Source: Rugalucina vietnamica
Taxonomy: Eukaryota; Mollusca; Bivalvia; Lucinida; Lucinidae
Assembly (NCBI GenBank): GCA_964017185.1
Contig: OZ024876.1
Location: 33,829,278 to 33,893,277, forward strand
Direction of reading: 5' to 3'
DNA length: 64,000 nt
A program made the position numbers and the translations under genes. Under the pieces are notes generated by a model, which was given only the letters and a program-made list of their open reading frames with translations, ran no database searches and was not told the origin of the DNA. Within the stretch, counting starts at the first letter, position 1. Every line of letters starts with the position of its first letter. This document shows positions 5,127 through 53,731 of the stretch, piece by piece.

Positions 5127-5130
5127 TTAA
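5127..5130. other. TTAA target-site duplication, left, transposon copy A
   Basis: TTAA directly abuts the left terminal inverted repeat at 5131 and is repeated at 16232-16235 beyond the right end. The bases outside it belong to the interrupted pol gene. Confidence 0.95.
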
Positions 5131-5153
5131 AGTTATACGATTGGTAAATTTTG
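5131..5153 (+). repeat. Left terminal inverted repeat, copy A
   Basis: 23 bp, matching the reverse complement of 16209-16231 without mismatch. After it the two ends diverge at once, so the inverted repeat is short for an 11-kb element. Confidence 0.93.
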
Positions 5154-5402
5154 GTACTTTTTGTATCAGTCTTAAACCCAGGTATGACACCTTTAACAAT
5201 CCATATTTTACAACTTACAGGGTTATAACCACGACAAAATTATTCCTAAAAGTTAAAAATGATTATTTCCCTGTCCCTACAAAGCTAAAATAATAAACGG
5301 CGCCCCGCCAAATATCTGTTTACGGAATTTCGATATTCATGTGACCTTTGATTGACCCCGACGAAAATAACTTTCGCGCAGTCGCATTAGCTCAGAATCA
5401 AA

Positions 5403-5945
5403 ATGGCGGATAAACACGCGTTTACGTCTCCAACGAAACGACGAGCGGGAAGGCCTCAAAAATCAGAGTCGGCGAAGAAGAGACGAAAACGAGCTACGGA
5501 TGCAAAGTCGCATAGATCGAGAATTAATATCGGCACCGAAATAGATCGCTGGAACGCATTTAAAGAGCAGTTGGGGCTGAAATCGAATGCGGAGACCGCC
5601 AAGCTGTTTCTGGACAGGTGAGATTCTATACATTGCCGTTTCTACGCTATGAAATTACAATGCGTTATATTTTTTTTCATTTTCATGTTCTCTTATAGTT
5701 GTTTAATGACTACATACTATAGACGCTTCCCAAAACTTTTTAAACACTAGGTTATTGAGCTTTTAAAATTGCAAAAAAACTTCTATTATTAGAATCCCAT
5801 ATTAGAGGCTCCTTAGGGGGAATTCATTTTCATGTCAACTGACCACTGTCAAGAAGCATTTTTTATCATGGAAGTATGGGGTTTAGGAAGACATTTTATT
5901 TAAATAATACAGTAAGCCATGTCTGGAAAATGTGAGTGGTAGCCT

Positions 5946-5988
<43 letters not shown>

Positions 5989-8900
5989 CACACCACAGAT
6001 TTTTTTTTTTTCACAAGTAAAAAATGAAAATTTTCTTTTGAAAATCTTGATATTTTTCTTAATTTTGCTCAAACGCTAGGCTAAGTCTTCTCTGGCTAAA
6101 TTATGTTTGTTTTGCTTTAGCAGCCTTCAAAATCGCAAAATGAAGAAAAAAAAAAAAAAAAAAAAAATAAAATATCAAAAGATTTGTAGACATCAGAGAA
6201 GGCTTGGATTACTCAAATACTAGATTGTGGGTACATGTTAGAGCACCCCACGAAAACCCACAATCTATGTTATGTGTGGTGCCTGATAACAAGCATTAAA
6301 TAAGGCACCTTGTGTATTAACAGCATATACACATGCGGATTGCCCCATTTATACACAGCATTTCTTCATTTGTATAAATAGGCCCATGTGCGGATCCAGA
6401 GGGGGGACCGGGGGTCTGGACCCCCCCTGGAATTTGAAAATTTTACCTAAAAAAAGGTAATTTCGGGATTTTTGGGGGTATATATATACATGATTGTAGG
6501 CCTACTTGTGTTCCTTTGCTGAGAAAATACTCATTTATTCTCATTTCTTCAATCTATTTTAGATTTGAATTTGAGCTGGAAGATAAGGCAGTCCTACCAA
6601 AGTCTAAGTCACTAAAGACATCAACTCCGGCGTGTAAAGATATGCTCCACAGTGTTCCTGATGTGTCTGAGATATCATCTGATTCAGATGTGAGGTAAAA
6701 GTCTTGCAAGATATGTTGAGCAGTATAGCTTCCAGAACTTGAAAATTTAAGTGGCCCCCTGTGGCTGAGCGGTTAAGATTGCTGTTTCTTAATCACTCGA
6801 TCATCTAACCGATGTGTCTGGTGTGGGTTCGAGCCCCGCCCTGGCCACATGTGAGAAAAGCCAAGTTTTTGCTTGCGGGTGTGTTAGGTGTTTTTATCTG
6901 TTTTCTCCCGTTTTCGCCTACCTACTGATTGGCTCGTCTCATATGAGCTGAAATAATCTAGGTAGGGACGTAAAATTAAAAAAAAAAAACAAAAAAAAAA
7001 ACAAACTAAAAATGTTGTCTTGGCTATCATTTCGAAAACTTGCCCATGCAATAAACAGAGATTTTTTTTAGTTAAAAAAAATTGAAAATTTTGCTGAAAA
7101 AGCTTGATGTTTTTCTTATTTTTGCTCAAAACAATAGATTGCATTATAACCGCCTCGCCAAGGCGGTTCTAACGAGTACCCACAATCTATGTTTTGGAGC
7201 AAAAATAAGAAAATTAGATAAACCCCTGCATAACCCAGTTCTGCTATATAAAAGTGGGGTACAAGGGGGTATACATTACACAGACATGTTTTCGTGATGT
7301 AGGGTTTCCCTGTAGTAATTATTTTGTTTAGACTGTTAGCCAACATGATAATTCTAGAAATACAACTGGTGTGTCAATTTTCTAAAAATTGGAATCTTTG
7401 ACAGATTTAGGAACTAAATTTTAGTAGTGTTTATCTACCTTATTTGCAGGACTTGATGGACACAGATTTTTAATTTTCAGGGTTTCAGGTTTGTCTGGAA
7501 TCGAGGTATTGACAGACTCCGAGATAGGGAAGCAAGAAACATATGCATGTTCTTCAAAGCCAGAGATCTCATCCAGTTTTATTAACCCTTTTGAGTAAGT
7601 TTTTAGATTTACAATATCTTAAGAGGAAATAATTGGTTTTGCGTGAATTTTGATACACAAAGTCTAATTAATGTCAGCAAGATGTTCTGTGCATTTGTAA
7701 TGTCTGGAATTAATTTTTTGACCAGTTTCGCAAAAATAGTATAAAAAATGGGACCTAACCATTTTCGAAAAATAGTATAAAAAAAAAACCTAATTGCTTT
7801 TGTGATTTTTTAAAGCAAAAAGTGGCTTCAGAAACAATTATTACTTTGTTGGGCCTAACAGCATTTAAATGGACCAATTTACACCCAACAAAGTTTCTTC
7901 TGTTTATTTTTCAGCCTTACTATGGAAGTGACAGAGGATGATATGAATGCGGAGCAAGTAGACTCTGATGAGGATTATGAGCCTAGCATCAACCTCACTA
8001 TAAGGTAGAGTAAATTCATATAAAGAAAAAGCAAGTCTTCACTTCCATATGCATAGAATTATCCAATTGAGGTCATGCTTTTATAATGACTTACTGAATA
8101 TTATGCAGGGTTCCCACAACCACTGGAAAACATGGAAAATGGCTAAAAAAAATCCATGAATGGAAAATTCATGGAATTTGAAAAATGACGAAATACATGT
8201 ATCATAGAAAAATCATTGAATTCTGCTATGAAATGCCAGGGATTCATTTTTTTCCTCGCTCCCTCGATAAATATTGATAAATAAAGTTCTGTCTTTCTAA
8301 ACAGCATTCAAACCAATTCAATTCAAACCTCGCTGAGGCGGTTCTAACAAGTACCCACAATATATGTTTTGGAGCAAAAATAAGAAAAAAAGGTATACCC
8401 CTGCATACTCCAGTTTTTACTATACAAAAGTGGGGTACGAGGGGGTATACATTACATGGACATGTTTTCCTGATGGTCTCTATGATTTTGTTTTAAGTTC
8501 ATGTAGGTTGACTTTGTATTTTTGAATTTTTAGGAAAGTAACAATATTGTTTTCACAGGCCTTCCAATTCTGCGGCACTCGAAGACGTGGCGTTTGCAGA
8601 AGTGGAATTTGGAGACCACCGTGATGACATTGAAGAGGAAGAGGAGATTATACCCGAGGTCGATATTGCTGGGCCAGGAATTAAGAGGGTCTTATCCTTT
8701 CTGGATCATAGTGTGGTCACTGAAGATGAGACATATCTTTGTTTTCTTGGTCAGATTATTAATCTGGCACATGCCAAGATTCCAGAAAGCTGTACTATTC
8801 CTAGCTGTGGCCAGCCTGTGAAGATTGTCCATGAATCAGTCGGATCTGCACTCTATTTGAAATGGGTAAGAATGGCATTTATTTGCTTTGCATATATTTT

Positions 8901-11900
8901 ATACCAGCTGTTAATCCTGTTGTGTAAATTATCCTAAGCACAAACAACCATCATTATGTGTATCCATTTATCCAAGATCATGCACATTGTTTTTTATGTA
9001 ACTACACCTGGGTAACTCAGTGACTATGAGAACACAATCAATTGAGGGTGAACTGGGATAGAACCAGGACAGTAAGAAAGGGGCTTGATTGGTAAATAGT
9101 ACATAGCCTACAATAAGGGAAATTTGTATTCTGTTTCATTTTTACCATTTCTTATTTCAGAATTGCTCTAATGGTCATCTTGTGCACAGTTGGTGTTCAC
9201 AACCAATCCTCAACAGGAGACTGCATAGCGGGGATCTTCTAATCTCTGCAGCCCTCCTGCTATCTGGAAACAACTACAGCAAGATAGCCCTGATGGCCAG
9301 ATATCTTAGGATGCATTTCGTGAGCGTGGCTGTTTTTCACAGGTAGTGTATAAATTGATATAAAATGCATCAAGCCGGGATCATGAGGTTGTGTGTGAAG
9401 AGTCTGATTTGGCTCGATTACAACACAGCCTCTCTATAACACTATTGTTGGGGTCCAAGCAAATTTCCGTGTTAGCTATCCAATCCATGTCATATGGAGA
9501 GAAAAATGTGAAGATATATACCAAAATTAGTCTAAAATGACCATTTGGGGTCCATAAACTGTATGGGACACTTTTTAGCATGTCAGAGTATCATATTTGC
9601 CAGAGAATCTATGGACTTATTATCGTGAAACTATGTCCCAGATGTAGATGACCCAATTTAAAACATAACTTTTTTGTACATAATCTTGTATGGTGTATAA
9701 AAGCATGACAAAGAACCTTGTAGAGAGAACTGATGTTTTGGGGACAGGCATGGCAATAATTATACATGTATCTGTTGTTTTTTGTTTGTGTGTGTTATAC
9801 CTGTATATTAAATATGCACAATCACTTCACAGGATCCAGAGGACATACTTAGTGCCAGCCATTGATCAGTATTGGGAGAAAACACAGGCAGCAGTTATCA
9901 GTGGTTTGAACAGTCAGAAACTAGTCTTGCTGGGTAAGTACATGAATATAATTATGTTGGATATGAAAAATGTCTCATCAAGTAAAAAGGTGTTTTTGGA
10001 TTTTGAATGGGCAGGGCTGTTGAATACTAGTAGTCTGGAGACGTTTGAACATACTGTATGTATAATAACATCATTTGAGCCGTGACATGAGAAAACTGTT
10101 CTTTGGAGTTACCGACCTAGTCTGTCACAAACTGGCCTGTGCATTCTCAGAAGAAAGCTAGACTCTTGAAATTTTGTGTTCAAGTAATTATACTATCCTT
10201 GCAGCCAAAACAAAGGCGCTGATCAGCTTCACAGTTACTGCGAAGCTGATATGCGCTTTTGTTTTCACATAGGCAAAACTCTGGTTTTCTCATGATGCGG
10301 CTCATTTATCTTGAAAACAAAAAACATGGTATGAAGTTATTATTTTGTTTTATAGGAGATGGTAGAATGGACAGTCCTGGACATTGTGCCCAGTACTGTT
10401 CTTATACCATGATGGAGAACAGCACCAAAGAGATTGTTTCCCTAGTAACCTTGGACAAAAGGCATACAGCTGGGAAGAGTAGTAATCTAGAGAAAGCCTG
10501 TTTCACAAAATCCCTGACATCCCTAACCCAGAAGAGAGTGGAGATAAGTGAAGTTGTCACAGATTCTCACATGCAGATTACCTCTCTTATGAGTAAGTTC
10601 TGCTCTCTTAGCATAACAGTAACTGTATACGGAAATAAGCATGATACAATTTGTAACAGACACTATGATGAAATAAGACTAAAAGTATATAATGAATGTA
10701 TCTTATTGAAAGCCTGAAAGTGCACATTTTCATTCTTTTCATATTCCAAAATCATGACAATAGTACATTCTCATCCAAGGTTTTGATATTCCGTGATATC
10801 AACAAATGTGTCTCCTCTGAATTACAGACTGTAAATCCTGGGCTGGGCTAACTGGGCTTGATTTTGAGCTGGGCTCATTTGAGGACAGAATTCTGTAAGG
10901 ATCAGATGCAGACCTAGTAAATTCCTGTTAAACAAAGCTGCTAATTCAATAAAAACTTGTCAAATGCTGATATACTTTCAGAAAGAAGTCATCCAGATAT
11001 CAGACACTCATTTGACATTTGGCATTCTGCCAAAAACTTAAACAAGAAGATAGTCAAGGTATGTTTTCTGTCTCATGTAGTCCTGGCTTTCCCAGAATTG
11101 ATATTCTTTAATACCAAAAAAGATATGGGTTTTTGGAACTACTGTGTCATGACTATTCTAATTGAGCAGTTGCCAATGGTTGATGTTGATTGATTGAGAC
11201 TCATTGTTGATATGGAGCATGGTGACGGTGGTGACCTAATTAAGAAATAGGTGTTTGAAACCTGCTGAGGTTCAGTGTTGTTTCATTGAGCAAGACAGAT
11301 CTACTCCTAAAGTCCTGGTTTATAAATACACAGGTGGCTCAGTCTGAACATGACAGAAAATTTGTTGACTGGGATTTTATCCAACAATAAAGACAAAATA
11401 ATCATTGATAACGGTTTGCTCTTGGCTTAGAAGTGTATTGGCTTCTAAATTAATTGCAACTTGATGCTGATCAGGTGTCCATATATAAAAAAAAATTACA
11501 ATATACCAGTTTGATTTTAGGCTGGCCAAGAAAAGGGATGTAAAGACCTGCTGCAATGGAGTAAGCATGTCACAAATCACTTCTACCATGCTGCACAGAA
11601 AGCAAACAGTTATCAGGAATTCATGGTAATCTTTCGTCTTTCAAAGACTTGTATACATTTTCATGCACCTAGCCTGCAGTTTTCTTTATGTAATTTTGGA
11701 AACTTGCTTCTTTATTAGTTTTGTTTTTAAATTGTCATTTCATAATCTGGTTTTGGATAATATGGTACCTCAGATGATACCCAAAAAGTACCTTTAATAG
11801 CTGTTGATGTTTGACAGAACAGATTAAACATTTTTTTTTATCTAAGTGCTAGTTACTAAACATTTTCTCAGCTTTTACATTTGTGTTTATGAATACATGA

Positions 11901-13268
11901 ATTACATTGCAGGCTATATGGACTGGTGTTCTACATCATGTAGTGAACGAGCATCAGTGGTTATTTGATTACGGGAGTGGATCCAACAGCTGTTCCCATG
12001 GGCCATTAACTGAGGAACGGAATGTCAAATGGCTTGAGGCTGGAAGCAAGGCACACCAAGCTTTGGTCAAAATTGTTCTTGACAGAAGACTCCAGAATAA
12101 TGTGCCCTACTACTTGAATTTCAGGTATTGTGCAAAAATAACCAAATCAATCCTCATAGTGCTTGCTCTGACAGAAGCACAAAAATATTATATAATGGCA
12201 ACACATAGTTGAAGACAAAGGCTAGAGGTAAAGTGGGTTTTGATGGTAAACCATAATTAAAAAAAGGTACAAGTAGGCAACGATCAGTTAAAGGCGCAAT
12301 CAGAAAAAGATTCCAACTCCAAAAACCGAGGCGGGAAAAAACCAAACTAACAATAATGTACTTATACCATTCCTTAAGCCGAATGAGCAGCTAGTTTCCC
12401 AATAGGTGGCCACTCAGTTACCGTAGTTGTTTGCACATTATGGCAAAATCAGGTTATCCCTTGCTAAGCTGACAATGTAAAGCCTTACTTGAAAGATATA
12501 CATGTAGAAATAAAATGTTTCGGCTCAAACCTAACTTTCATTTTGCTATTTTCAGAAGCACAGCTGAACTGGAAAGTTTTCAGAACTTGATTCTGATGTA
12601 CGCTGCAAAGCGGTTTTCATATTCCCCTCCAGTGTACAGAGCAAGGAACCTTTTGGCTGCTTTGGACTATAATGCCCATGTCCATCGCGGAGCAAAGCTT
12701 AACAAAGATGGAAGTGTAAGGTACTGGATTTATAACTTCTTAACCATAGATATTATACACGAAAATCTCAAAATGAAATAGACTACTAGTTAAAGTAACA
12801 TTGCTTGCAAGTCATTCAACTGGTCTATATTTGCATCAATTGGTTCTAGTTTTATTTGTAAAAACCCTTCAAAAATATGTGGCTGTACTTCCTGACTTAC
12901 AGATAGGCAATTGTTGTCGTTTGTACTTGATGTAATTTCCTTTTATGTTCTGTCAAAAAGCTTTGGCTCATCTTGCCTTTCAAATGTTTAGGTATTCAAT
13001 CCTTTTTTATGATTTTAGATACCAGAGATTGTACAACAAAAAAAGTGGACGTTGGACTGTTACAGAGGTGAAGGAAGAAAAGACATACCCTCATATTCCT
13101 GAAGTCATCAAGACCGTACTCAGGATCAGATTACAGGACGGCTCAGGCATGCAAGGAAAGATGATTCTGGAGGATGATGATCCACGACACATCTCAAGAA
13201 CTTTGTCCTTCAATCCACCACCAGCTACTAATGAGCTTGTTGAACAGAAAAAATCACGTTTGAAATAG
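5403..13268 (+). CDS. Kolobok-like transposase, 13 exons, 728 aa (copy A)
   Basis: I read the exons as 5403-5617, 6563-6694, 7481-7594, 7915-8004, 8559-8865, 9161-9342, 9833-9933, 10356-10592, 10982-11058, 11521-11625, 11913-12124, 12556-12720 and 13019-13268. All introns are GT-AG, all phases agree, and the total is 2,187 nt with one terminal stop. The N-terminus is basic (GRPQKSESAKKRRKR) and followed by a helical segment, probably DNA-binding and nuclear. Residues about 185-245 are acidic. Cys262, Cys267, Cys288 and His292/Cys298 (CSNGHLVHSWCSQP) form a likely zinc site. The RNase-H-like core shows GDGRMDSPGH (Asp382/Asp386), TDSHMQI (Asp450), FDIWHSAKN (about 470-478) and Glu597 in ELESF, which I take as the D-D-E triad. 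The TTAA flanks support Kolobok. The ATG at 5403 begins exon 1 and lies about 270 bp from the left end. No disabling change is seen. Confidence 0.85.
5949..5987. repeat. (GT)n microsatellite in transposase intron 1
   Basis: About 20 GT units. Copy B carries about four more units (8 bp) at 43439-43485, the largest length difference found between the two transposon copies. Confidence 0.9.
6015..6277. mobile_element. Divergent copy of palindromic MITE family M1, in intron 1
   Basis: Contains the M1 hallmarks in decayed form: a TTTTTCTTAATTTTGCTCAAA segment, AGATTGTGGGTACATGTTAG, and the inverted partner CCCACAATCTATGTTATG. The terminal parts are weak. Confidence 0.45.
6751..7003 (+). mobile_element. 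tRNA-derived SINE in transposase intron 2
   Basis: Starts with a tRNA-like head: an A-box-like TGGCTGAGCGGTTAAG and a B-box GGTTCGAGCCCC, closing with GGCCAC that pairs with the first bases GTGGCC. A body of about 120 bp and an A-rich tail follow. The anticodon arm does not fold cleanly, so this is a SINE head and not a working tRNA. An identical copy sits in transposon copy B at 44249-44501. Confidence 0.7.
7031..7299 (+). mobile_element. Palindromic MITE, family M1, in transposase intron 2
   Basis: Ends are inverted (CGAAAACTTGCCCATG on the left, CATGTTTTCGTGATG on the right). The centre has a GAACCGCC/GGCGGTTC hairpin and ACCCACAATCTATG. Other M1 copies are at 8329-8475 (partial), 24738-25012, 30264-30534, 31612-31777 and 55042-55319. 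Confidence 0.75.
8329..8475 (+). mobile_element. Half copy of MITE family M1 in transposase intron 4
   Basis: Begins inside the central hairpin (CCTCGCTGAGGCGGTTC) and ends with CATGTTTTCCTGATG. The left half of the family is missing. Confidence 0.65.
10076..10304 (+). mobile_element. Palindromic MITE, family M2, in transposase intron 7
   Basis: Ends TGAGCCGTGACATGAGAAAA and TTTTCTCATGATGCGGCTCA are inverted repeats. Internally AAAGGCGCTGATCAGCTTC faces GAAGCTGATATGCGCTTTTG to form a long hairpin. Related copies are at 30817-31047, 31042-31210, 35327-35564, 35749-35990, 41180-41345 and 54733-54969. Confidence 0.75.
12266..12420 (-). repeat. Dispersed repeat R (minus orientation) in transposase intron 11
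   Basis: Carries the motifs GCTGCTCATTCGG, TATAAGTAC, CCCGCCTCGGTTTTTGGAGT and GATTGCGCC in reverse. The same segment occurs at 24451-24590 and twice in tandem at 61233-61712. It has no coding capacity and its class is unknown. Confidence 0.65.
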
Positions 13269-13462
13269 TTAAATAACTTGGTTGTTTGATTTGGGGTTAA
13301 CGTCCCACCAACAGCTTTGGTCATCCCCCTGCCCCCATCCCCCTTGCTGAATGTCTGAGGATCCTGAGTACTATCTTTATGACTTCAGGAATGTGAGGGT
13401 TACATTGAATAGATGGAAAGCAAAATGAAGTAACAATTTATATCTGTATTTATATTCATTGA

Positions 13463-15994
13463 TTAACCCAGTCTCCCTGGCTTGAAACCCACATACTGGC
13501 CATTAGGGTCAGGAAATTTGTCACGTATTTTCCATACGCAGCAGCTGGGGATCACCCTCCTTACACCTGCACCTAGTCTTCCATGAGTCCACATCACGAA
13601 CTGTCTGTAGGCAGCGTGCCTATAGCCACGATTTGCATCTGCGTCGATTGGGAAAGCCAGAATGTCATTTCTATAAACATTAGCCAGCTGAAGAACATTC
13701 TCGTCCAAGGCTATGAGCTGGAAATGCTGAAATTATATTTGAAGCAAACAATCTAAAAAAAAAGACAGGAAATTGCAAAACATACACAAACTCTGGTACA
13801 AATGTGTTGGTATAAACTAGCTGATATATTATTTTGAAAATGTTAAACACTCAACTGCTAGTTCATAGATTTGTTAAATCTGCCTCTCCTGGAAATCTTT
13901 GTACTTTTTGTGAAACATGTATTCTAATATGAATGTGTGAGTCTTAGTAGTAAATCATATTTCTTCTTTTTCCCACAAGTATTTCCATCGATAAGGGAAA
14001 TTTATTATGTTGGAATATTGTATACCCTGAAACATAAACTTCGAGTTGTAAAACTGAATACAAAAATTGTAGTATTTTTACTGGTAGATTTGATATGCAG
14101 TAGGCTGGCAACTTTCCACAGCACACCCGCTCATCCTCCTGGGGCATTTCCCTACAGTTGGTGCAACTGCACCAACTGGGGCTTGAACTTGGTGATGGGT
14201 CTTGGCTCGGACTGGGACTGGGACTGGGACTGCTGCTGCCTTGGCCATCAAACCTACCACAGTCCAGCACGTCCCACAGCAGGTCGGGGTTTTTGTCGAT
14301 AGACTTAATTAGTATTGCCTTCAACTCTTTCTTCTTGAGATCTCCAACAATTTCCTGTGAGCACAGAAAAACAATGCAAGAATCAAGTTAAATGTATGTT
14401 TACAGTTACTGTAATAAGTATTTTGATATCCAAAAATAGAAAATTGTAGTTTATGTTACCTTATTGTGGTATTTCATACGATAATATGCATCATCATTGT
14501 TTTAGTAACTTGTTACAGTGGAGTATGATGTCAAAATATTTTTATGGTTGAGTCAGGTTGACTTAGAGAAGATACTAAACTCGGGTATTGGCAGCTTTAG
14601 TTACAATTTACATCACTGACATACCCTAAGCTTCTCTTTCTTCCTTCGCAGACCAACAACTATCTCTTCTGCGTTGTTTCTGTGAAGCCTAACCCTGAGC
14701 CCCTGTTGTGCCCCACCCCTCCCTCTTCCTCTCCCTCGCCCTCTTGCTTGTTTAGGAGCTGATGCTCCAACTTCATCATCATCAGTTGACATTTCATGAT
14801 TTTCATCTGATGATGAGTTTGATATCTAGGTAAAGTAAAAGCAATATAAGAATCTACTGTCCTTACACCATTTTTCAGAAACTGCTTTGTTCAAAATCTC
14901 CATTACTAAATGTACCGTAAATGTAAATATGGGATGCAAAATGGTTTACGGGGTGCAAAATACGGGATGCAAAATTAGTATTATATTTTTCTGGAGATGG
15001 AAGTTTCAGAAAAATGTTTTCTTGAAAAAAATAGTTTCTGAAAGATTGTGAAGGCACAGTTGAAGAATAGTGCACCATGGGGAGATGAACCTAATAATAA
15101 TAAGCCATGTTTTTCTGTTCATGTTAGTATATGCTCGTTTGTAAAAAGTTATGTATGTTGATAATTGATAACTCAAATAAAATATATTTAACCAAAAGTG
15201 CACTAGTCTTTTGTAACCATGACAATAAACAATGGTGGACCTGGCCTTATGCACCTGATATATGAACAGAGATCCATTTTAGGTTTCTCCCCTTCAAGAT
15301 TCTTTCAAGAGACAGCTTGCTGCAGAGCATAAACTTTCCCCAATCAATTTTTATCTATTTTATTTTAGAATAGTAAAAAGACGTAAAAAAGGAAGAAAGA
15401 AAAGCCGAATAATTCTAATATTGAAAAAAAAAAAAAAAAATAGTAGAAAAGAGAGAAAAAAAAAAAGTAACTTCACCCGGAATCGAACTCACGACCCCGA
15501 TATCAGAGACCGTGCGCACTCCCAACTGAGCTATTGGGACTTTTAGATTTTGGTAAAATTTTACAACATAATAAATCATGATCTTGAACCACTGTTCTAT
15601 GGAAGAATATTTTATTTTCTTTCCGTCTGTTTACAAGTATTCTGGTTCAATATTTATTTCACAATTACGTATGAACACACATGAAACACACTGCATAGTG
15701 TTTATAATTTTACGAGACTTTGAGAGCCGGAAAATTGCAATTTATGTGATCGATCAAGCATTTACCCCATTGGGAGCCTCTTGTAATCGATATTACGGCA
15801 ATATGGCGATCTCTGACGAAATCAACCGGAAAACTTGCACAAGAAATGGAAAAATAGAGACGGGTTAGAGCTTCCTTGTACTTGCGTAACAGTCTTTGTG
15901 CATTTTTAACATCTTATTTGTATTTTCGATCAAATACATAGTTCATACATAAAAATAAGACCTGTATATGTTTTTTTCTTACCTCAGATGCCAT
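13463..15994 (-). CDS. P2X7-ballast-like cysteine-rich protein carried by the transposon, 4 exons, 249 aa (copy A)
   Basis: I read the exons on the minus strand as 15994-15983, 14825-14625, 14354-14082 and 13726-13463. All introns are GT-AG and phase 0, with 750 nt in total. Exon 1 codes only MASE. Exon 2 is acidic, then an RGRGRGRG tract, then basic. Exon 3 ends in a Ser/Pro repeat followed by WCSCTNC (Cys133, Cys135, Cys138), Cys149-Cys150 and Cys157. Exon 4 contains the YRHAAYRQF segment (about 197-205), SCCVWKIRDKFPD (Cys224-Cys225) and NGQYVGFKPG near the end. The cysteine spacing and these motifs match the cytoplasmic C-terminal 'ballast' domain of the P2X7 receptor, which binds zinc. 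There is no membrane channel part, so this is a free-standing domain protein. It faces the transposase gene tail to tail, 195 bp apart. Its job in the transposon is unknown; zinc, nucleic-acid or partner binding are guesses. Confidence 0.8.
15473..15540 (-). repeat. tRNA-like sequence with pyrimidine-rich trailer, minus strand
   Basis: On the minus strand it reads GTCCCAATAGCTCAGTTGGG (A box) then GAGTTCGATTCCGG (B box), with an anticodon-arm-like segment giving CTG. Acceptor and T-stem pairing is poor, so it is a pseudo-tRNA or SINE head. A long T-rich tract follows on the same strand (15472-15380). It lies in intron 1 of the ballast-like gene. The copy B equivalent is 52973-53040. Confidence 0.55.
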
Positions 15995-16208
15995 GTTGGT
16001 GAAGCTGTCGTGACCTTCCGTAATCGTTCGACTTTGGCATCGTCGTAAATGGCCGATTATTAATGAAGTCTGAAAATCTTTACGATTTTATTATTTTTTT
16101 CGCTAACGCATCACAACCAGATCACATCTCTAACCCTCAGCCCATTTCGCATTGCTTTTTAATATAATCTTCTTGCATTTGACAAGTTTTCCGTGGAATT
16201 TATAGGGT

Positions 16209-16231
16209 CAAAATTTACCAATCGTATAACT
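16209..16231 (-). repeat. Right terminal inverted repeat, copy A
   Basis: The last 23 bp of the transposon, an exact reverse complement of the left end. TTAA follows at 16232-16235. Confidence 0.93.
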
Positions 16232-16685
16232 TTAACCTTTCAGCCAACTCCGAGTTAATGAAGCTCACAAATTGCTTACAATTAGGGGCATTGCGGAAGA
16301 TCCTTGGGGGTGGGTACGAATGATCATAAACTACTCCATTAAACTCCCCCTTAAAATGGGTCATGAATTTGTTTATGTCCACTTTGTTTTTAATCCAGTC
16401 AAAGGCCTCACTTTGTTTATCCAAGATGATCTCTTCCCACAAATCAACGTTATTATGTACATTTCCTGCAATAAAGTAAGATGTATCCAAAAAACACATA
16501 TTGCTTTCCAACACCGTTTCTGCAAAATCCCGTTGATTGCCACAAAATGAATATGTTGGTTTACCCTGAACCTGTTCCCCCATCACATTAACGTACGTCG
16601 GTGATAACACACGTCTTTGGATTGTTCCTGGGTGGAAGCTAGCATCTCTTTCCCATTCATATATATGTACGTTGTCCACCAAAGT
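16232..16685 (-). pseudogene. YR-retrotransposon pol, N-terminal part (cut by transposon copy A)
   Basis: A splice acceptor (GTTACAG) ends at 16686, and the frame then stays open to the insertion point at 16232-16235, about 150 codons. The segment is the region before the RT fingers: it contains WEEIILDK and YPPPRIFRN, as in DIRS-order elements. It has no start codon of its own near the acceptor, so it probably depends on an upstream leader exon. Its frame is in phase with 5126-2839 across the duplicated TTAA. Confidence 0.85.
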
Positions 16686-34900: not shown

Positions 34901-35257
34901 TTAACGCCTTTTCTGTCGTTTTTAATGTTTTCATTAAAATTCATGAATATGCAAATTTCTAAATTTGCATTACTTACTATAGGATGAAAGGGCTATATCT
35001 AAGCTTTAAAATGAGACCAATTTCAGTGGTCTAGGATAAATAACAATGGAGATATGGTCAATTTTTTATGTACACCCCCATGCTCAAGAATCGGTTTAAC
35101 GGTTACCATGGAAACCATGGATTTTTTCATAGTGCAATTGAGTTTATCTTTGAGGACAAAAATTCTTTGCATTTCTGGGGTCCCAATGAACGATTTGGCA
35201 CCCATGAAAAATTATCCTGGGGGGGGGGTGCAAGGTAGGTCAAATTAGCTCCCGGGG
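31964..35257. mobile_element. Fold-back element, arms of about 1.55 kb, TA target duplication
   Basis: The left end CCCCGGGAGCTAATTTGACC and right end (…CAAATTAGCTCCCGGGG) are inverted, and the match continues for about 1.55 kb on each side (to about 33515; from about 33710) around a spacer of about 195 bp. TA flanks both ends (31962-31963, 35258-35259). Each arm is built of diverged units of about 175-190 bp that carry a TTCATGAATNTTAATGAAAA-like core and alternate with a GATATGGTC/GAGATGCAAG-like part. The frames at 32435-32668 and 34558-34791 are mirror copies within the arms and not genes. No transposase is present. Confidence 0.82.
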
Positions 35258-42620: not shown

Positions 42621-42643
42621 AGTTATACGATTGGTAAATTTTG
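42621..42643 (+). repeat. Left terminal inverted repeat, copy B
   Basis: Identical to 5131-5153. Confidence 0.93.
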
Positions 42644-42892
42644 GTACTTTTTGTATCAGTCTTAAACCCAGGTATGACACCTTTAACAATCCATATTTTA
42701 CAACTTACAGGGTTATAACCACGACAAAATTATTCCTAAAAGTTAAAAATGATTATTTCCCTGTCCCTACAAAGCTAAAATAATAAACGGCGCCCCGCCA
42801 AATATCTGTTTACGGAATTTCGATATTCATGTGACCTTTGATTGACCCCGACGAAAATAACTTTCGCGCAGTCGCATTAGCTCAGAATCAAA

Positions 42893-43435
42893 ATGGCGGA
42901 TAAACACGCGTTTACGTCTCCAACGAAACGACGAGCGGGAAGGCCTCAAAAATCAGAGTCGGCGAAGAAGAGACGAAAACGAGCTACGGATGCAAAGTCG
43001 CATAGATCGAGAATTAATATCGGCACCGAAATAGATCGCTGGAACGCATTTAAAGAGCAGTTGGGGCTGAAATCGAATGCGGAGACCGCCAAGCTGTTTC
43101 TGGACAGGTGAGATTCTATACATTGCCGTTTCTACGCTATGAAATTACAATGCGTTATATTTTTTTTCATTTTCATGTTCTCTTATAGTTGTTTAATGAC
43201 TACATACTATAGACGCTTCCCAAAACTTTTTAAACACTAGGTTATTGAGCTTTTAAAATTGCAAAAAAACTTCTATTATTAGAATCCCATATTAGAGGCT
43301 CCTTAGGGGGAATTCATTTTCATGTCAACTGACCACTGTCAAGAAGCATTTTTTATCATGGAAGTATGGGGTTTAGGAAGACATTTTATTTAAATAATAC
43401 AGTAAGCCATGTCTGGAAAATGTGAGTGGTAGCCT

Positions 43436-43486
<51 letters not shown>

Positions 43487-46400
43487 CACACCACAGATTT
43501 TTTTTTTTTCACAAGTAAAAAATGAAAATTTTCTTTTGAAAATCTTGATATTTTTCTTAATTTTGCTCAAACGCTAGGCTAAGTCTTCTCTGGCTAAATT
43601 ATGTTTGTTTTGCTTTAGCAGCCTTCAAAATCGCAAAATGAAGAAAAAAAAAAAAAAAAAAAAAATAAAATATCAAAAGATTTGTAGACATCAGAGAAGG
43701 CTTGGATTACTCAAATACTAGATTGTGGGTACATGTTAGAGCACCCCACGAAAACCCACAATCTATGTTATGTGTGGTGCCTGATAACAAGCATTAAATA
43801 AGGCACCTTGTGTATTAACAGCATATACACATGCGGATTGCCCCATTTATACACAGCATTTCTTCATTTGTATAAATAGGCCCATGTGCGGATCCAGAGG
43901 GGGGACCGGGGGTCTGGACCCCCCCTGGAATTTGAAAATTTTACCTAAAAAAAGGTAATTTCGGGATTTTTGGGGGTATATATATACATGATTGTAGGCC
44001 TACTTGTGTTCCTTTGCTGAGAAAATACTCATTTATTCTCATTTCTTCAATCTATTTTAGATTTGAATTTGAGCTGGAAGATAAGGCAGTCCTACCAAAG
44101 TCTAAGTCACTAAAGACATCAACTCCGGCGTGTAAAGATATGCTCCACAGTGTTCCTGATGTGTCTGAGATATCATCTGATTCAGATGTGAGGTAAAAGT
44201 CTTGCAAGATATGTTGAGCAGTATAGCTTCCAGAACTTGAAAATTTAAGTGGCCCCCTGTGGCTGAGCGGTTAAGATTGCTGTTTCTTAATCACTCGATC
44301 ATCTAACCGATGTGTCTGGTGTGGGTTCGAGCCCCGCCCTGGCCACATGTGAGAAAAGCCAAGTTTTTGCTTGCGGGTGTGTTAGGTGTTTTTATCTGTT
44401 TTCTCCCGTTTTCGCCTACCTACTGATTGGCTCGTCTCATATGAGCTGAAATAATCTAGGTAGGGACGTAAAATTAAAAAAAAAAAACAAAAAAAAAAAC
44501 AAACTAAAAATGTTGTCTTGGCTATCATTTCGAAAACTTGCCCATGCAATAAACAGAGATTTTTTTTAGTTAAAAAAAATTGAAAATTTTGCTGAAAAAG
44601 CTTGATGTTTTTCTTATTTTTGCTCAAAACAATAGATTGCATTATAACCGCCTCGCCAAGGCGGTTCTAACGAGTACCCACAATCTATGTTTTGGAGCAA
44701 AAATAAGAAAATTAGATAAACCCCTGCATAACCCAGTTCTGCTATATAAAAGTGGGGTACAAGGGGGTATACATTACACAGACATGTTTTCGTGATGTAG
44801 GGTTTCCCTGTAGTAATTATTTTGTTTAGACTGTTAGCCAACATGATAATTCTAGAAATACAACTGGTGTGTCAATTTTCTAAAAATTGGAATCTTTGAC
44901 AGATTTAGGAACTAAATTTTAGTAGTGTTTATCTACCTTATTTGCAGGACTTGATGGACACAGATTTTTAATTTTCAGGGTTTCAGGTTTGTCTGGAATC
45001 GAGGTATTGACAGACTCCGAGATAGGGAAGCAAGAAACATATGCATGTTCTTCAAAGCCAGAGATCTCATCCAGTTTTATTAACCCTTTTGAGTAAGTTT
45101 TTAGATTTACAATATCTTAAGAGGAAATAATTGGTTTTGCGTGAATTTTGATACACAAAGTCTAATTAATGTCAGCAAGATGTTCTGTGCATTTGTAATG
45201 TCTGGAATTAATTTTTTGACCAGTTTCGCAAAAATAGTATAAAAAATGGGACCTAACCATTTTCGAAAAATAGTATAAAAAAAAAACCTAATTGCTTTTG
45301 TGATTTTTTAAAGCAAAAAGTGGCTTCAGAAACAATTATTACTTTGTTGGGCCTAACAGCATTTAAATGGACCAATTTACACCCAACAAAGTTTCTTCTG
45401 TTTATTTTTCAGCCTTACTATGGAAGTGACAGAGGATGATATGAATGCGGAGCAAGTAGACTCTGATGAGGATTATGAGCCTAGCATCAACCTCACTATA
45501 AGGTAGAGTAAATTCATATAAAGAAAAAGCAAGTCTTCACTTCCATATGCATAGAATTATCCAATTGAGGTCATGCTTTTATAATGACTTACTGAATATT
45601 ATGCAGGGTTCCCACAACCACTGGAAAACATGGAAAATGGCTAAAAAAAAATCCATGAATGGAAAATTCATGGAATTTGAAAAATGACGAAATACATGTA
45701 TCATAGAAAAATCATTGAATTCTGCTATGAAATGCCAGGGATTCATTTTTTTCCTCGCTCCCTCGATAAATATTGATAAATAAAGTTCTGTCTTTCTAAA
45801 CAGCATTCAAACCAATTCAATTCAAACCTCGCTGAGGCGGTTCTAACAAGTACCCACAATATATGTTTTGGAGCAAAAATAAGAAAAAAAGGTATACCCC
45901 TGCATACTCCAGTTTTTACTATACAAAAGTGGGGTACGAGGGGGTATACATTACATGGACATGTTTTCCTGATGGTCTCTATGATTTTGTTTTAAGTTCA
46001 TGTAGGTTGACTTTGTATTTTTGAATTTTTAGGAAAGTAACAATATTGTTTTCACAGGCCTTCCAATTCTGCGGCACTCGAAGACGTGGCGTTTGCAGAA
46101 GTGGAATTTGGAGACCACCGTGATGACATTGAAGAGGAAGAGGAGATTATACCCGAGGTCGATATTGCTGGGCCAGGAATTAAGAGGGTCTTATCCTTTC
46201 TGGATCATAGTGTGGTCACTGAAGATGAGACATATCTTTGTTTTCTTGGTCAGATTATTAATCTGGCACATGCCAAGATTCCAGAAAGCTGTACTATTCC
46301 TAGCTGTGGCCAGCCTGTGAAGATTGTCCATGAATCAGTCGGATCTGCACTCTATTTGAAATGGGTAAGAATGGCATTTATTTGCTTTGCATATATTTTA

Positions 46401-49400
46401 TACCAGCTGTTAATCCTGTTGTGTAAATTATCCTAAGCACAAACAACCATCATTATGTGTATCCATTTATCCAAGATCATGCACATTGTTTTTTATGTAA
46501 CTACACCTGGGTAACTCAGTGACTATGAGAACACAATCAATTGAGGGTGAACTGGGATAGAACCAGGACAGTAAGAAAGGGGCTTGATTGGTAAATAGTA
46601 CATAGCCTACAATAAGGGAAATTTGTATTCTGTTTCATTTTTACCATTTCTTATTTCAGAATTGCTCTAATGGTCATCTTGTGCACAGTTGGTGTTCACA
46701 ACCAATCCTCAACAGGAGACTGCATAGCGGGGATCTTCTAATCTCTGCAGCCCTCCTGCTATCTGGAAACAACTACAGCAAGATAGCCCTGATGGCCAGA
46801 TATCTTAGGATGCATTTCGTGAGCGTGGCTGTTTTTCACAGGTAGTGTATAAATTGATATAAAATGCATCAAGCCGGGATCATGAGGTTGTGTGTGAAGA
46901 GTCTGATTTGGCTCGATTACAACACAGCCTCTCTATAACACTATTGTTGGGGTCCAAGCAAATTTCCGTGTTAGCTATCCAATCCATGTCATATGGAGAG
47001 AAAAATGTGAAGATATATACCAAAATTAGTCTAAAATGACCATTTGGGGTCCATAAACTGTATGGGACACTTTTTAGCATGTCAGAGTATCATATTTGCC
47101 AGAGAATCTATGGACTTATTATCGTGAAACTATGTCCCAGATGTAGATGACCCAATTTAAAACATAACTTTTTTGTACATAATCTTGTATGGTGTATAAA
47201 AGCATGACAAAGAACCTTGTAGAGAGAACTGATGTTTTGGGGACAGGCATGGCAATAATTATACATGTATCTGTTGTTTTTTGTTTGTGTGTGTTATACC
47301 TGTATATTAAATATGCACAATCACTTCACAGGATCCAGAGGACATACTTAGTGCCAGCCATTGATCAGTATTGGGAGAAAACACAGGCAGCAGTTATCAG
47401 TGGTTTGAACAGTCAGAAACTAGTCTTGCTGGGTAAGTACATGAATATAATTATGTTGGATATGAAAAATGTCTCATCAAGTAAAAAGGTGTTTTTGGAT
47501 TTTGAATGGGCAGGGCTGTTGAATACTAGTAGTCTGGAGACGTTTGAACATACTGTATGTATAATAACATCATTTGAGCCGTGACATGAGAAAACTGTTC
47601 TTTGGAGTTACCGACCTAGTCTGTCACAAACTGGCCTGTGCATTCTCAGAAGAAAGCTAGACTCTTGAAATTTTGTGTTCAAGTAATTATACTATCCTTG
47701 CAGCCAAAACAAAGGCGCTGATCAGCTTCACAGTTACTGCGAAGCTGATATGCGCTTTTGTTTTCACATAGGCAAAACTCTGGTTTTCTCATGATGCGGC
47801 TCATTTATCTTGAAAACAAAAAACATGGTATGAAGTTATTATTTTGTTTTATAGGAGATGGTAGAATGGACAGTCCTGGACATTGTGCCCAGTACTGTTC
47901 TTATACCATGATGGAGAACAGCACCAAAGAGATTGTTTCCCTAGTAACCTTGGACAAAAGGCATACAGCTGGGAAGAGTAGTAATCTAGAGAAAGCCTGT
48001 TTCACAAAATCCCTGACATCCCTAACCCAGAAGAGAGTGGAGATAAGTGAAGTTGTCACAGATTCTCACATGCAGATTACCTCTCTTATGAGTAAGTTCT
48101 GCTCTCTTAGCATAACAGTAACTGTATACGGAAATAAGCATGATACAATTTGTAACAGACACTATGATGAAATAAGACTAAAAGTATATAATGAATGTAT
48201 CTTATTGAAAGCCTGAAAGTGCACATTTTCATTCTTTTCATATTCCAAAATCATGACAATAGTACATTCTCATCCAAGGTTTTGATATTCCGTGATATCA
48301 ACAAATGTGTCTCCTCTGAATTACAGACTGTAAATCCTGGGCTGGGCTAACTGGGCTTGATTTTGAGCTGGGCTCATTTGAGGACAGAATTCTGTAAGGA
48401 TCAGATGCAGACCTAGTAAATTCCTGTTAAACAAAGCTGCTAATTCAATAAAAACTTGTCAAATGCTGATATACTTTCAGAAAGAAGTCATCCAGATATC
48501 AGACACTCATTTGACATTTGGCATTCTGCCAAAAACTTAAACAAGAAGATAGTCAAGGTATGTTTTCTGTCTCATGTAGTCCTGGCTTTCCCAGAATTGA
48601 TATTCTTTAATACCAAAAAAGATATGGGTTTTTGGAACTACTGTGTCATGACTATTCTAATTGAGCAGTTGCCAATGGTTGATGTTGATTGATTGAGACT
48701 CATTGTTGATATGGAGCATGGTGACGGTGGTGACCTAATTAAGAAATAGGTGTTTGAAACCTGCTGAGGTTCAGTGTTGTTTCATTGAGCAAGACAGATC
48801 TACTCCTAAAGTCCTGGTTTATAAATACACAGGTGGCTCAGTCTGAACATGACAGAAAATTTGTTGACTGGGATTTTATCCAACAATAAAGACAAAATAA
48901 TCATTGATAACGGTTTGCTCTTGGCTTAGAAGTGTATTGGCTTCTAAATTAATTGCAACTTGATGCTGATCAGGTGTCCATATATAAAAAAAAATTACAA
49001 TATACCAGTTTGATTTTAGGCTGGCCAAGAAAAGGGATGTAAAGACCTGCTGCAATGGAGTAAGCATGTCACAAATCACTTCTACCATGCTGCACAGAAA
49101 GCAAACAGTTATCAGGAATTCATGGTAATCTTTCGTCTTTCAAAGACTTGTATACATTTTCATGCACCTAGCCTGCAGTTTTCTTTATGTAATTTTGGAA
49201 ACTTGCTTCTTTATTAGTTTTGTTTTTAAATTGTCATTTCATAATCTGGTTTTGGATAATATGGTACCTCAGATGATACCCAAAAAGTACCTTTAATAGC
49301 TGTTGATGTTTGACAGAACAGATTAAACATTTTTTTTTATCTAAGTGCTAGTTACTAAACATTTTCTCAGCTTTTACATTTGTGTTTATGAATACATGAA

Positions 49401-50767
49401 TTACATTGCAGGCTATATGGACTGGTGTTCTACATCATGTAGTGAACGAGCATCAGTGGTTATTTGATTACGGGAGTGGATCCAACAGCTGTTCCCATGG
49501 GCCATTAACTGAGGAACGGAATGTCAAATGGCTTGAGGCTGGAAGCAAGGCACACCAAGCTTTGGTCAAAATTGTTCTTGACAGAAGACTCCAGAATAAT
49601 GTGCCCTACTACTTGAATTTCAGGTATTGTGCAAAAATAACCAAATCAATCCTCATAGTGCTTGCTCTGACAGAAGCACAAAAATATTATATAATGGCAA
49701 CACATAGTTGAAGACAAAGGCTAGAGGTAAAGTGGGTTTTGATGGTAAACCATAATTAAAAAAAGGTACAAGTAGGCAACGATCAGTTAAAGGCGCAATC
49801 AGAAAAAGATTCCAACTCCAAAAACCGAGGCGGGAAAAAACCAAACTAACAATAATGTACTTATACCATTCCTTAAGCCGAATGAGCAGCTAGTTTCCCA
49901 ATAGGTGGCCACTCAGTTACCGTAGTTGTTTGCACATTATGGCAAAATCAGGTTATCCCTTGCTAAGCTGACAATGTAAAGCCTTACTTGAAAGATATAC
50001 ATGTAGAAATAAAATGTTTCGGCTCAAACCTAACTTTCATTTTGCTATTTTCAGAAGCACAGCTGAACTGGAAAGTTTTCAGAACTTGATTCTGATGTAC
50101 GCTGCAAAGCGGTTTTCATATTCCCCTCCAGTGTACAGAGCAAGGAACCTTTTGGCTGCTTTGGACTATAATGCCCATGTCCATCGCGGAGCAAAGCTTA
50201 ACAAAGATGGAAGTGTAAGGTACTGGATTTATAACTTCTTAACCATAGATATTATACACGAAAATCTCAAAATGAAATAGACTACTAGTTAAAGTAACAT
50301 TGCTTGCAAGTCATTCAACTGGTCTATATTTGCATCAATTGGTTCTAGTTTTATTTGTAAAAACCCTTCAAAAATATGTGGCTGTACTTCCTGACTTACA
50401 GATAGGCAATTGTTGTCGTTTGTACTTGATGTAATTTCCTTTTATGTTCTGTCAAAAAGCTTTGGCTCATCTTGCCTTTCAAATGTTTAGGTATTCAATC
50501 CTTTTTTATGATTTTAGATACCAGAGATTGTACAACAAAAAAAGTGGACGTTGGACTGTTACAGAGGTGAAGGAAGAAAAGACATACCCTCATATTCCTG
50601 AAGTCATCAAGACCGTACTCAGGATCAGATTACAGGACGGCTCAGGCATGCAAGGAAAGATGATTCTGGAGGATGATGATCCACGACACATCTCAAGAAC
50701 TTTGTCCTTCAATCCACCACCAGCTACTAATGAGCTTGTTGAACAGAAAAAATCACGTTTGAAATAG
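42893..50767 (+). CDS. Kolobok-like transposase, 13 exons, 728 aa (copy B)
   Basis: The exons, placed by the offset to copy A, are 42893-43107, 44061-44192, 44979-45092, 45413-45502, 46058-46364, 46660-46841, 47332-47432, 47855-48091, 48481-48557, 49020-49124, 49412-49623, 50055-50219 and 50518-50767. Every exon frame that I compared translates the same as in copy A, so the zinc site, the Asp382/Asp386, Asp450 and Glu597 candidates and all splice signals are kept. The convergent partner gene starts at 53494 on the other strand. With both ends intact, this copy could be autonomous. That is inference from sequence integrity and not proof of activity. Confidence 0.85.
43439..43485. repeat. (GT)n microsatellite in intron 1, copy B
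   Basis: About four units longer than the tract at 5949-5987. Confidence 0.9.
44249..44501 (+). mobile_element. tRNA-derived SINE in transposase intron 2, copy B
   Basis: Same sequence and position as 6751-7003, so it entered before the two transposon copies separated. Confidence 0.7.
44529..44797 (+). mobile_element. MITE family M1 in intron 2, copy B
   Basis: Counterpart of 7031-7299. A partial M1 at 45828-45974 corresponds to 8329-8475. Confidence 0.75.
47575..47803 (+). mobile_element. MITE family M2 in intron 7, copy B
   Basis: Counterpart of 10076-10304. Confidence 0.75.
49765..49919 (-). repeat. Dispersed repeat R in intron 11, copy B
   Basis: Counterpart of 12266-12420. Confidence 0.65.
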
Positions 50768-50961
50768 TTAAATAACTTGGTTGTTTGATTTGGGGTTAAC
50801 GTCCCACCAACAGCTTTGGTCATCCCCCTGCCCCCATCCCCCTTGCTGAATGTCTGAGGATCCTGAGTACTATCTTTATGACTTCAGGAATGTGAGGGTT
50901 ACATTGAATAGATGGAAAGCAAAATGAAGTAACAATTTATATCTGTATTTATATTCATTGA

Positions 50962-53494
50962 TTAACCCAGTCTCCCTGGCTTGAAACCCACATACTGGCC
51001 ATTAGGGTCAGGAAATTTGTCACGTATTTTCCATACGCAGCAGCTGGGGATCACCCTCCTTACACCTGCACCTAGTCTTCCATGAGTCCACATCACGAAC
51101 TGTCTGTAGGCAGCGTGCCTATAGCCACGATTTGCATCTGCGTCGATTGGGAAAGCCAGAATGTCATTTCTATAAACATTAGCCAGCTGAAGAACATTCT
51201 CGTCCAAGGCTATGAGCTGGAAATGCTGAAATTATATTTGAAGCAAACAATCTAAAAAAAAAGACAGGAAATTGCAAAACATACACAAACTCTGGTACAA
51301 ATGTGTTGGTATAAACTAGCTGATATATTATTTTGAAAATGTTAAACACTCAACTGCTAGTTCATAGATTTGTTAAATCTGCCTCTCCTGGAAATCTTTG
51401 TACTTTTTGTGAAACATGTATTCTAATATGAATGTGTGAGTCTTAGTAGTAAATCATATTTCTTCTTTTTCCCACAAGTATTTCCATCGATAAGGGAAAT
51501 TTATTATGTTGGAATATTGTATACCCTGAAACATAAACTTCGAGTTGTAAAACTGAATACAAAAATTGTAGTATTTTTACTGGTAGATTTGATATGCAGT
51601 AGGCTGGCAACTTTCCACAGCACACCCGCTCATCCTCCTGGGGCATTTCCCTACAGTTGGTGCAACTGCACCAACTGGGGCTTGAACTTGGTGATGGGTC
51701 TTGGCTCGGACTGGGACTGGGACTGGGACTGCTGCTGCCTTGGCCATCAAACCTACCACAGTCCAGCACGTCCCACAGCAGGTCGGGGTTTTTGTCGATA
51801 GACTTAATTAGTATTGCCTTCAACTCTTTCTTCTTGAGATCTCCAACAATTTCCTGTGAGCACAGAAAAACAATGCAAGAATCAAGTTAAATGTATGTTT
51901 ACAGTTACTGTAATAAGTATTTTGATATCCAAAAATAGAAAATTGTAGTTTATGTTACCTTATTGTGGTATTTCATACGATAATATGCATCATCATTGTT
52001 TTAGTAACTTGTTACAGTGGAGTATGATGTCAAAATATTTTTATGGTTGAGTCAGGTTGACTTAGAGAAGATACTAAACTCGGGTATTGGCAGCTTTAGT
52101 TACAATTTACATCACTGACATACCCTAAGCTTCTCTTTCTTCCTTCGCAGACCAACAACTATCTCTTCTGCGTTGTTTCTGTGAAGCCTAACCCTGAGCC
52201 CCTGTTGTGCCCCACCCCTCCCTCTTCCTCTCCCTCGCCCTCTTGCTTGTTTAGGAGCTGATGCTCCAACTTCATCATCATCAGTTGACATTTCATGATT
52301 TTCATCTGATGATGAGTTTGATATCTAGGTAAAGTAAAAGCAATATAAGAATCTACTGTCCTTACACCATTTTTCAGAAACTGCTTTGTTCAAAATCTCC
52401 ATTACTAAATGTACCGTAAATGTAAATATGGGATGCAAAATGGTTTACGGGGTGCAAAATACGGGATGCAAAATTAGTATTATATTTTTCTGGAGATGGA
52501 AGTTTCAGAAAAATGTTTTCTTGAAAAAAATAGTTTCTGAAAGATTGTGAAGGCACAGTTGAAGAATAGTGCACCATGGGGAGATGAACCTAATAATAAT
52601 AAGCCATGTTTTTCTGTTCATGTTAGTATATGCTCGTTTGTAAAAAGTTATGTATGTTGATAATTGATAACTCAAATAAAATATATTTAACCAAAAGTGC
52701 ACTAGTCTTTTGTAACCATGACAATAAACAATGGTGGACCTGGCCTTATGCACCTGATATATGAACAGAGATCCATTTTAGGTTTCTCCCCTTCAAGATT
52801 CTTTCAAGAGACAGCTTGCTGCAGAGCATAAACTTTCCCCAATCAATTTTTATCTATTTTATTTTAGAATAGTAAAAAGACGTAAAAAAGGAAGAAAGAA
52901 AAGCCGAATAATTCTAATATTGAAAAAAAAAAAAAAAAATAGTAGAAAAGAGAGAAAAAAAAAAAAGTAACTTCACCCGGAATCGAACTCACGACCCCGA
53001 TATCAGAGACCGTGCGCACTCCCAACTGAGCTATTGGGACTTTTAGATTTTGGTAAAATTTTACAACATAATAAATCATGATCTTGAACCACTGTTCTAT
53101 GGAAGAATATTTTATTTTCTTTCCGTCTGTTTACAAGTATTCTGGTTCAATATTTATTTCACAATTACGTATGAACACACATGAAACACACTGCATAGTG
53201 TTTATAATTTTACGAGACTTTGAGAGCCGGAAAATTGCAATTTATGTGATCGATCAAGCATTTACCCCATTGGGAGCCTCTTGTAATCGATATTACGGCA
53301 ATATGGCGATCTCTGACGAAATCAACCGGAAAACTTGCACAAGAAATGGAAAAATAGAGACGGGTTAGAGCTTCCTTGTACTTGCGTAACAGTCTTTGTG
53401 CATTTTTAACATCTTATTTGTATTTTCGATCAAATACATAGTTCATACATAAAAATAAGACCTGTATATGTTTTTTTCTTACCTCAGATGCCAT
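50962..53494 (-). CDS. P2X7-ballast-like cysteine-rich protein, 4 exons, 249 aa (copy B)
   Basis: The exons on the minus strand are 53494-53483, 52324-52124, 51853-51581 and 51225-50962. They encode the same acidic/RGRG-rich N-terminal region, Ser/Pro linker, WCSCTNC cluster and SCCVWKIRD block as copy A. The short first exon (MASE) ends at a donor GAG|GTAAG, and the second opens after CTAG; both are phase 0. Position inside the right terminal region, 237 bp from the transposon end, suggests the promoter lies in or next to the inverted repeat. Preservation of all exons in both copies indicates the gene is part of the element and not a passing capture. Confidence 0.8.
52973..53040 (-). repeat. 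tRNA-like sequence, minus strand, copy B
   Basis: Counterpart of 15473-15540 in intron 1 of the ballast-like gene. The neighbouring A-run (T-run on its own strand) is one base longer than in copy A. Confidence 0.55.
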
Positions 53495-53708
53495 GTTGGT
53501 GAAGCTGTCGTGACCTTCCGTAATCGTTCGACTTTGGCATCGTCGTAAATGGCCGATTATTAATGAAGTCTGAAAATCTTTACGATTTTATTATTTTTTT
53601 CGCTAACGCATCACAACCAGATCACATCTCTAACCCTCAGCCCATTTCGCATTGCTTTTTAATATAATCTTCTTGCATTTGACAAGTTTTCCGTGGAATT
53701 TATAGGGT

Positions 53709-53731
53709 CAAAATTTACCAATCGTATAACT
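53709..53731 (-). repeat. Right terminal inverted repeat, copy B
   Basis: Reverse complement of 42621-42643, followed by TTAA at 53732-53735. Confidence 0.93.

Follow-up and report, generated by a model that had tools for sequence, protein, structure and literature searches.

A 64,000-nucleotide stretch of the genome of the lucinid bivalve Rugalucina vietnamica (GenBank assembly GCA_964017185.1, contig OZ024876.1, positions 33,829,278 to 33,893,277 of the forward strand), hereafter the window, contains two intact copies of a DNA transposon with two convergent genes. One gene encodes a transposase, and the other encodes KolX, a protein that resembles the ballast domain of the P2X7 receptor. 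Copy A (window positions 5131..16231, plus strand, 11,101 bp) ends in perfect 23-bp terminal inverted repeats (5131..5153, plus strand, and 16209..16231, minus strand), which were also recovered in an inverted-repeat scan. It is flanked by TTAA target-site duplications at 5127..5130 and 16232..16235. Copy B (42621..53731, plus strand, 11,111 bp) has the same ends and a TTAA pair of its own. The ends read AG...CT, in agreement with the 5'-RR...YY-3' termini of Kolobok transposons, and the 4-bp TTAA duplication on both sides of each copy agrees with the Kolobok target site.

The gene models are predictions, spliced by hand from the genomic sequence. The transposase gene of copy A (5403..13268, plus strand) is a single open frame of 728 residues with GT-AG introns and 13 exons (5403-5617, 6563-6694, 7481-7594, 7915-8004, 8559-8865, 9161-9342, 9833-9933, 10356-10592, 10982-11058, 11521-11625, 11913-12124, 12556-12720, and 13019-13268). 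The KolX gene (13463..15994, minus strand) encodes 249 residues in 4 exons (15994-15983, 14825-14625, 14354-14082, and 13726-13463). It has a start codon at 15994, a stop codon ending at 13463, GT-AG introns throughout, and no internal stop. The two stop codons are 194 bases apart. In copy B, the transposase gene (42893..50767, plus strand) and the KolX gene (50962..53494, minus strand) consist of 13 and 4 exons, respectively, all identical to those of copy A. An earlier, sequence-only reading of the window had described an 11-kb TTAA transposon with a minus-strand gene that lies wholly between the transposon ends, converges with the transposase, and is intact in both copies. This description holds in full, and the coordinates it gave for the gene are exact.

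Over about 11.1 kb, no substitution separates copies A and B; their only differences are three small changes in the length of simple repeats (8, 1, and 1 bases). Such identity is also what a single segmental or assembly duplication would produce, in which case recent mobility would be unproven. This alternative is highly improbable: the flanking DNA is unlike between the two copies, which indicates transposition rather than segmental duplication, and both ends stop exactly at TTAA. Copy A also splits a reverse-transcriptase frame, and rejoining its flanks restores the empty site as an open frame without a stop. Finally, a third copy, 0.9% diverged and with both genes open, is found on another contig (C6); its target site is imperfect, reading TTA beside one of the ends and TTAG beside the other. 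Because the two window copies show no substitutions and precise TTAA insertions, the element is considered to have moved very recently in this genome.

The C6 copy carries 8 substitutions in 2,931 exonic sites and 92 in 8,089 other sites (Fisher p=3.7e-6). The transposase exons alone have 5 substituted sites of 2,187 (p=1.5e-5).

Two further sequence features are seen inside the element. A 41-nt inverted repeat, 90% complementary (13087-13127 and 13360-13400), places an inverted piece of the last transposase exon in the intergenic gap, where it may allow the transposase mRNA to fold into a hairpin. Two intron stretches (15476-15542, minus strand, and 6753-6850, plus strand) look by eye like the tRNA-derived head of a short interspersed nuclear element, with a B-box-like GTTCGA; ARAGORN reported no tRNA for them.

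KolX and the P2X7 ballast

The domain lies in the C-terminal part of KolX. Exon 3 (14082..14354, minus strand) encodes the zinc cluster WCSCTNC, CC, C, and exon 4 (13463..13726, minus strand) encodes the RHAAYR, PSCCVWKIR, and FPDPNGQYVGFK block. The resemblance to P2X7 proposed from the sequence is borne out by profile comparison. The Pfam model P2RX7_C (Pfam ID PF20478) matches residues 118 to 244 with 118.7 bits (E=3.7e-34; curated cut-off, 23.5), and residues 124 to 244 match four distinct sequences of solved P2X7 chains (6u9v/6u9w, 9e3m, 9e3q, and 8tr5) with E values from 6.7e-23 to 8e-22. In the alignment of KolX with P2X7, 47 of 120 residues (39%) are identical. All 8 ballast cysteines are common to both proteins; a ninth KolX cysteine is outside the domain. 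These comparisons establish genuine homology between KolX and the P2X7 ballast, and the ballast fold of KolX is inferred from the same matches.

The five GDP (guanosine diphosphate)-binding residues of rat P2X7, as given in the available text of Rump 2020 (PMC7016195), are R546, H547, R574, R578, and K583. With the alignment read by eye, three of them are kept in KolX (R546=R198, H547=H199, and R578=R230) and two are changed (R574 to V226 and K583 to D235). KolX further differs from P2X7 in being free-standing: the channel domain P2X_receptor (Pfam ID PF00864) gives no match at E<=1, and the N-terminal tail is acidic-serine and RG-repeat.

A two-gene transposon of this kind has been described. 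According to the available text of Kojima and Bao (2022; PMC9587614), elements of the Kol0 lineage of Kolobok (type Kolobok-1_XT) code not only for a transposase but also for KolX, a second protein that has a P2X7 ballast fold and matches residues 476 to 595 of human P2X7 and its seven zinc cysteines. The window element shares with it the two genes, the TTAA target, the RR..YY ends, and a second protein with the zinc cysteines of the ballast, and differs in having a transposase spread over 13 exons and no detected THAP domain. The sequence-only reading had left open whether a link between the ballast and a transposon was published. The link itself stands, on homology and pairing, and was already in print. 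No second publication connecting Kolobok with P2X7 is found among the matches listed in the open-licence literature, where KolX together with Kolobok leads to PMC9587614 alone; PMC9319628, in its available text, mentions Kolobok and P2X7 unconnected. The window element thus belongs to a known kind, and most of its explanation already exists; it offers an intact specimen and a stronger pairing argument than the sequence-only reading did. Compared only with its relatives in its own genome, it appears to represent a new family, which may already be in Repbase.

Stand-alone ballast proteins are found across animals, including oyster and limpet (PMC7016195), and the available text of that paper contains no word starting with "transpos" or "mobile." These ZCD proteins and Nanor resemble the window KolX in being short and free-standing, with a C-terminal ballast and a variable N terminus. 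In PMC7016195, as far as its available text goes, they are described as genes, whereas the window KolX lies within a mobile element. Kojima and Bao suggested that Nanor is a domesticated KolX (PMC9587614, available text).

Searches outside the animals have little bearing on distribution, as the collections concerned contain few animal sequences. Among viral contigs, no relatives were found for KolX, for the transposase, or for the alignment of KolX with P2X7, and the alignment has none among GTDB contigs. The transposase has no relatives in phage records and KolX has none in PHROGs; phage and plasmid records were not searched with KolX.

Pairing of ballast and transposase genes in the genome

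The genome containing the window (1,089,854,562 bases in 47 contigs) was searched for both genes. With PF20478, all 85 candidates were scored and gave 56 ballast matches; joining same-strand matches no more than 11 kb apart reduced these to 44 loci. Transposase loci were collected with two queries, the window transposase and a single-exon transposase from C9:42.1M, with scoring of 61 of 260 candidates for the first and 69 of 232 for the second; the counts are lower bounds. From the first search 43 of 64 matches were used, the remaining 21 being extra exons at counted loci, and from the second all 70; the same merging gave 53 loci. Elsewhere in the genome, transposase-like open-frame stretches match the window transposase with 32 to 35% identity and E values down to 3.6e-77.

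A transposase match is found within 5 kb of 25 of the 44 ballast loci and within 10 kb of 29; extending the distance to 100 kb adds none. The chance expectation at 20 kb is about 0.09 pairs. All 29 pairs are in the tail-to-tail orientation seen in the window. They include copies of the same family and do not represent 29 independent events; the 13 elements that were compared fall into about 8 lineages. The convergent layout as such is not specific to KolX, as the second gene of KolobokP is also found downstream on the complementary strand (PMC9587614, available text).

The two genes also appear to have diverged together. Among the compared elements, the transposase cores differ by up to 73%, and their distances correlate with those of the KolX C termini (Mantel r=0.93 for 13 elements, a value that none of 20,000 permutations reached). 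When each lineage is represented by a single element (8 elements), r is 0.68, which was reached in 31 of 20,000 permutations. The set comprises 13 of 15 elements, with C11:17.58M (too little transposase) and C3:60.19M (C-terminal ballast exon lacking) left out, and excludes element pairs that share fewer than 40 transposase columns. The KolX part has about 48 columns, making this a test of distances and not a comparison of trees.

The recurrence of the tail-to-tail pair, at 29 of 44 loci, and the correlated distances support KolX as a built-in gene of the transposon. They speak against a one-off capture, in which a single element would have swallowed a host ballast gene that now hitch-hikes. 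The 15 of 44 ballast loci that have no matched transposase nearby, such as C9:37.50M (L062), would suit such an event; a single event is contradicted by the recurrence of the pair, always tail-to-tail, with transposase cores as different as these, and retains very little probability. The built-in second gene had been proposed from the window sequence, to be abandoned if the P2X7 domain gave no profile match or if related transposons consistently lacked the gene, and within this genome that refutation fails. A within-genome count of such pairs is not found in the available text of PMC9587614.

The carrier could instead be a piggyBac transposon, which likewise uses TTAA and for which there is published precedent. 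However, the AG..CT ends match the 5'-RR/YY-3' rule of Kolobok (PMC9587614, available text), and the piggyBac model DDE_Tnp_1_7 does not match the transposase at E<=1. KolX keeps all of its cysteines, which piggyBac proteins mostly lack, according to the same text. The genome contains 40 piggyBac matches, and none of the 44 ballast loci is within 20 kb of one, the nearest being 99.7 kb away (a control that used start coordinates only). Together, the ends and the Pfam result in effect refute a piggyBac carrier, which is the least credible of the alternatives.

Several of the unpaired ballast loci have features of their own. L062 (C9:37502500-37507500) contains a ballast gene in two stop-free matched pieces (643-789 and 2200-2445), and none of the listed transposase matches lies within 100 kb of it; it is a candidate for either a host gene or an element minus its transposase. 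On C7, three tandem ballast loci without transposase matches (10.286, 10.301, and 10.315 Mb; L020, L024, L022, and L063) span about 29 kb on one strand, and the match at 10.286 Mb has stops in its upstream part.

Assignment to Kolobok and possible functions of KolX

The window element is best described as a cut-and-paste transposon of the Kolobok superfamily, Kol0 type, that carries KolX as its standing accessory gene, a reading to which a probability of about 0.93 is given. The signs of Kolobok, in the available text of PMC9587614, are the TTAA target, the RR/YY ends, and a DDD/E transposase with a C/DxxH motif and a zinc finger between this motif and the E. String search and inspection by eye, with no independent profile test, place the corresponding residues of the window transposase at D382, D450, D471xxH474, an HHVVNEH..SCSH finger (H/H/C547/H549), and E597.

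Several observations weigh against this reading. No Pfam model matches the transposase above its cut-off (DDE_Tnp_ISL3, at E=0.026, and MULE, at E=0.028, come closest), no chain of a solved structure matches it at E<=10, and a THAP domain, which is usual in Xenopus families of Kolobok (PMC6004289, available text), gives no match at E<=1; THAP is not found named as a defining Kolobok trait in the available text of PMC9587614. The assignment rests on the ends, the TTAA sites, the motifs identified by inspection, and the presence of KolX as a partner. To the unpaired ballast loci should be added 24 of the 53 transposase loci that have no ballast match within 30 kb. In the C6 copy, the sign of purifying selection in the KolX exons alone, with 3 substitutions in 744 sites, points in the same direction as that in the transposase exons without reaching significance (p=0.063).

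KolobokP elements (PMC9587614, available text) resemble the window element in being Kolobok transposons with a convergent second gene downstream on the complementary strand. They differ in having long terminal direct repeats (450/660 bp) and a His-Me nuclease, neither of which is found in the window element. No 450- or 660-bp direct repeat is present among the 20 largest of 30 repeat families, and the second gene is KolX, so KolobokP was rejected.

In the proposed mechanism, the transposase, through the residues listed above, would cut the element out and paste it at TTAA, and KolX would act beside it as a trans-acting cofactor. Two zinc ions would hold the C-terminal domain of KolX together, while the acidic-serine and RG-repeat tail might contact nucleic acid or chromatin and thereby help to target or regulate the transposition complex. 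The odds that KolX is such a cofactor appear about even. Since three of the five GDP-binding residues of rat P2X7 are kept, a guanine-nucleotide input to KolX is possible.

The main rival to a cofactor is a KolX directed at the host, for example one that represses, evades silencing, or regulates expression in the early embryo or germ line. Its zebrafish relative Nanor belongs to the zygotic genes of the midblastula transition (Rump 2020; PMC7016195, available text), and the acidic-serine and RG-repeat tail would also fit a function of this type. The constant convergence with the transposase suits any accessory role and does not discriminate between the two. A host-directed KolX is regarded as rather unlikely, and clearly less so than the alternatives to the transposon assignment.

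Genomic surroundings and the proposed origin of the P2X7 tail

Copy A is nested in an element that resembles a tyrosine-recombinase retrotransposon (window positions 400-20448, minus strand). This host element includes an open reading frame with ALOG and phage-integrase domains (18593-17344, minus strand), a weak CCHC knuckle below its cut-off (17322-16735, minus strand), and a stretch with reverse transcriptase, RNase H, and a GDSL-like part slightly under the cut-off (5214-2839, minus strand); its repeats are at 616-710/20354-20448 and 400-469/704-773. A recombinase that precedes the reverse transcriptase plus hydrolase seems to be an unusual order. The window also contains a large palindrome (31995-35228) with three arm pairs of 320 to 720 nt, 90 to 97% complementary, around a 131-nt centre, and a direct-repeat array (59051-60190) with units of about 128 bp.

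The P2X matches of the genome, seven in number, cluster in a stretch of about 25 kb on C13 and are taken as one locus. No P2X7-like fusion was found in it, with none of the 56 ballast matches located on C13. KolX of the window type retains the PSCC cysteine pair found in P2X7; in the other lineages compared, a single cysteine stands there. Over shared columns, identity to P2X7 is 21/48 for the window, 22/48 for C10, 19/47 for C16, and 18/47 for C11:8.39M among the PSCC types, and 14 to 20 of 45 to 48 columns for the single-cysteine types; on this measure, no type is decisively nearer to P2X7. The bit scores favour the window type, with 61.0 for it and 21.5 to 30.1 for the single-cysteine lineages, a difference that is partly owing to the longer window exon.

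Kojima and Bao proposed a fusion between KolX and a P2X4-like gene as the source of P2X7 (PMC9587614, available text), so that the receptor tail would represent a KolX-like gene captured later by a host. A more specific and decidedly doubtful version is that the ballast fold began as a zinc-stabilised, perhaps guanine-nucleotide-responsive cofactor of Kolobok and remained beside the transposase, tail-to-tail, across deep divergence, that the donor of the P2X7 tail was an element of the window type with PSCC and not a single-cysteine lineage, and that the conserved R546/H547/R578 pocket might be what is left of a control of transposition by nucleotides. The control imagined here may be likened to that of the P-element transposase, which needs GTP (guanosine triphosphate).

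The published claim that the P2X7 tail came from a transposon predicts that animal ballast genes will be found within Kolobok elements. In R. vietnamica this can be counted: 29 of 44 ballast loci, all convergent. The genome also has three copies of a two-gene element that is intact and has moved recently, one on C6 and the other two in the window, and this makes the role of the ballast for its transposon testable. That role bears on the function inherited by P2X7, an inflammation receptor.
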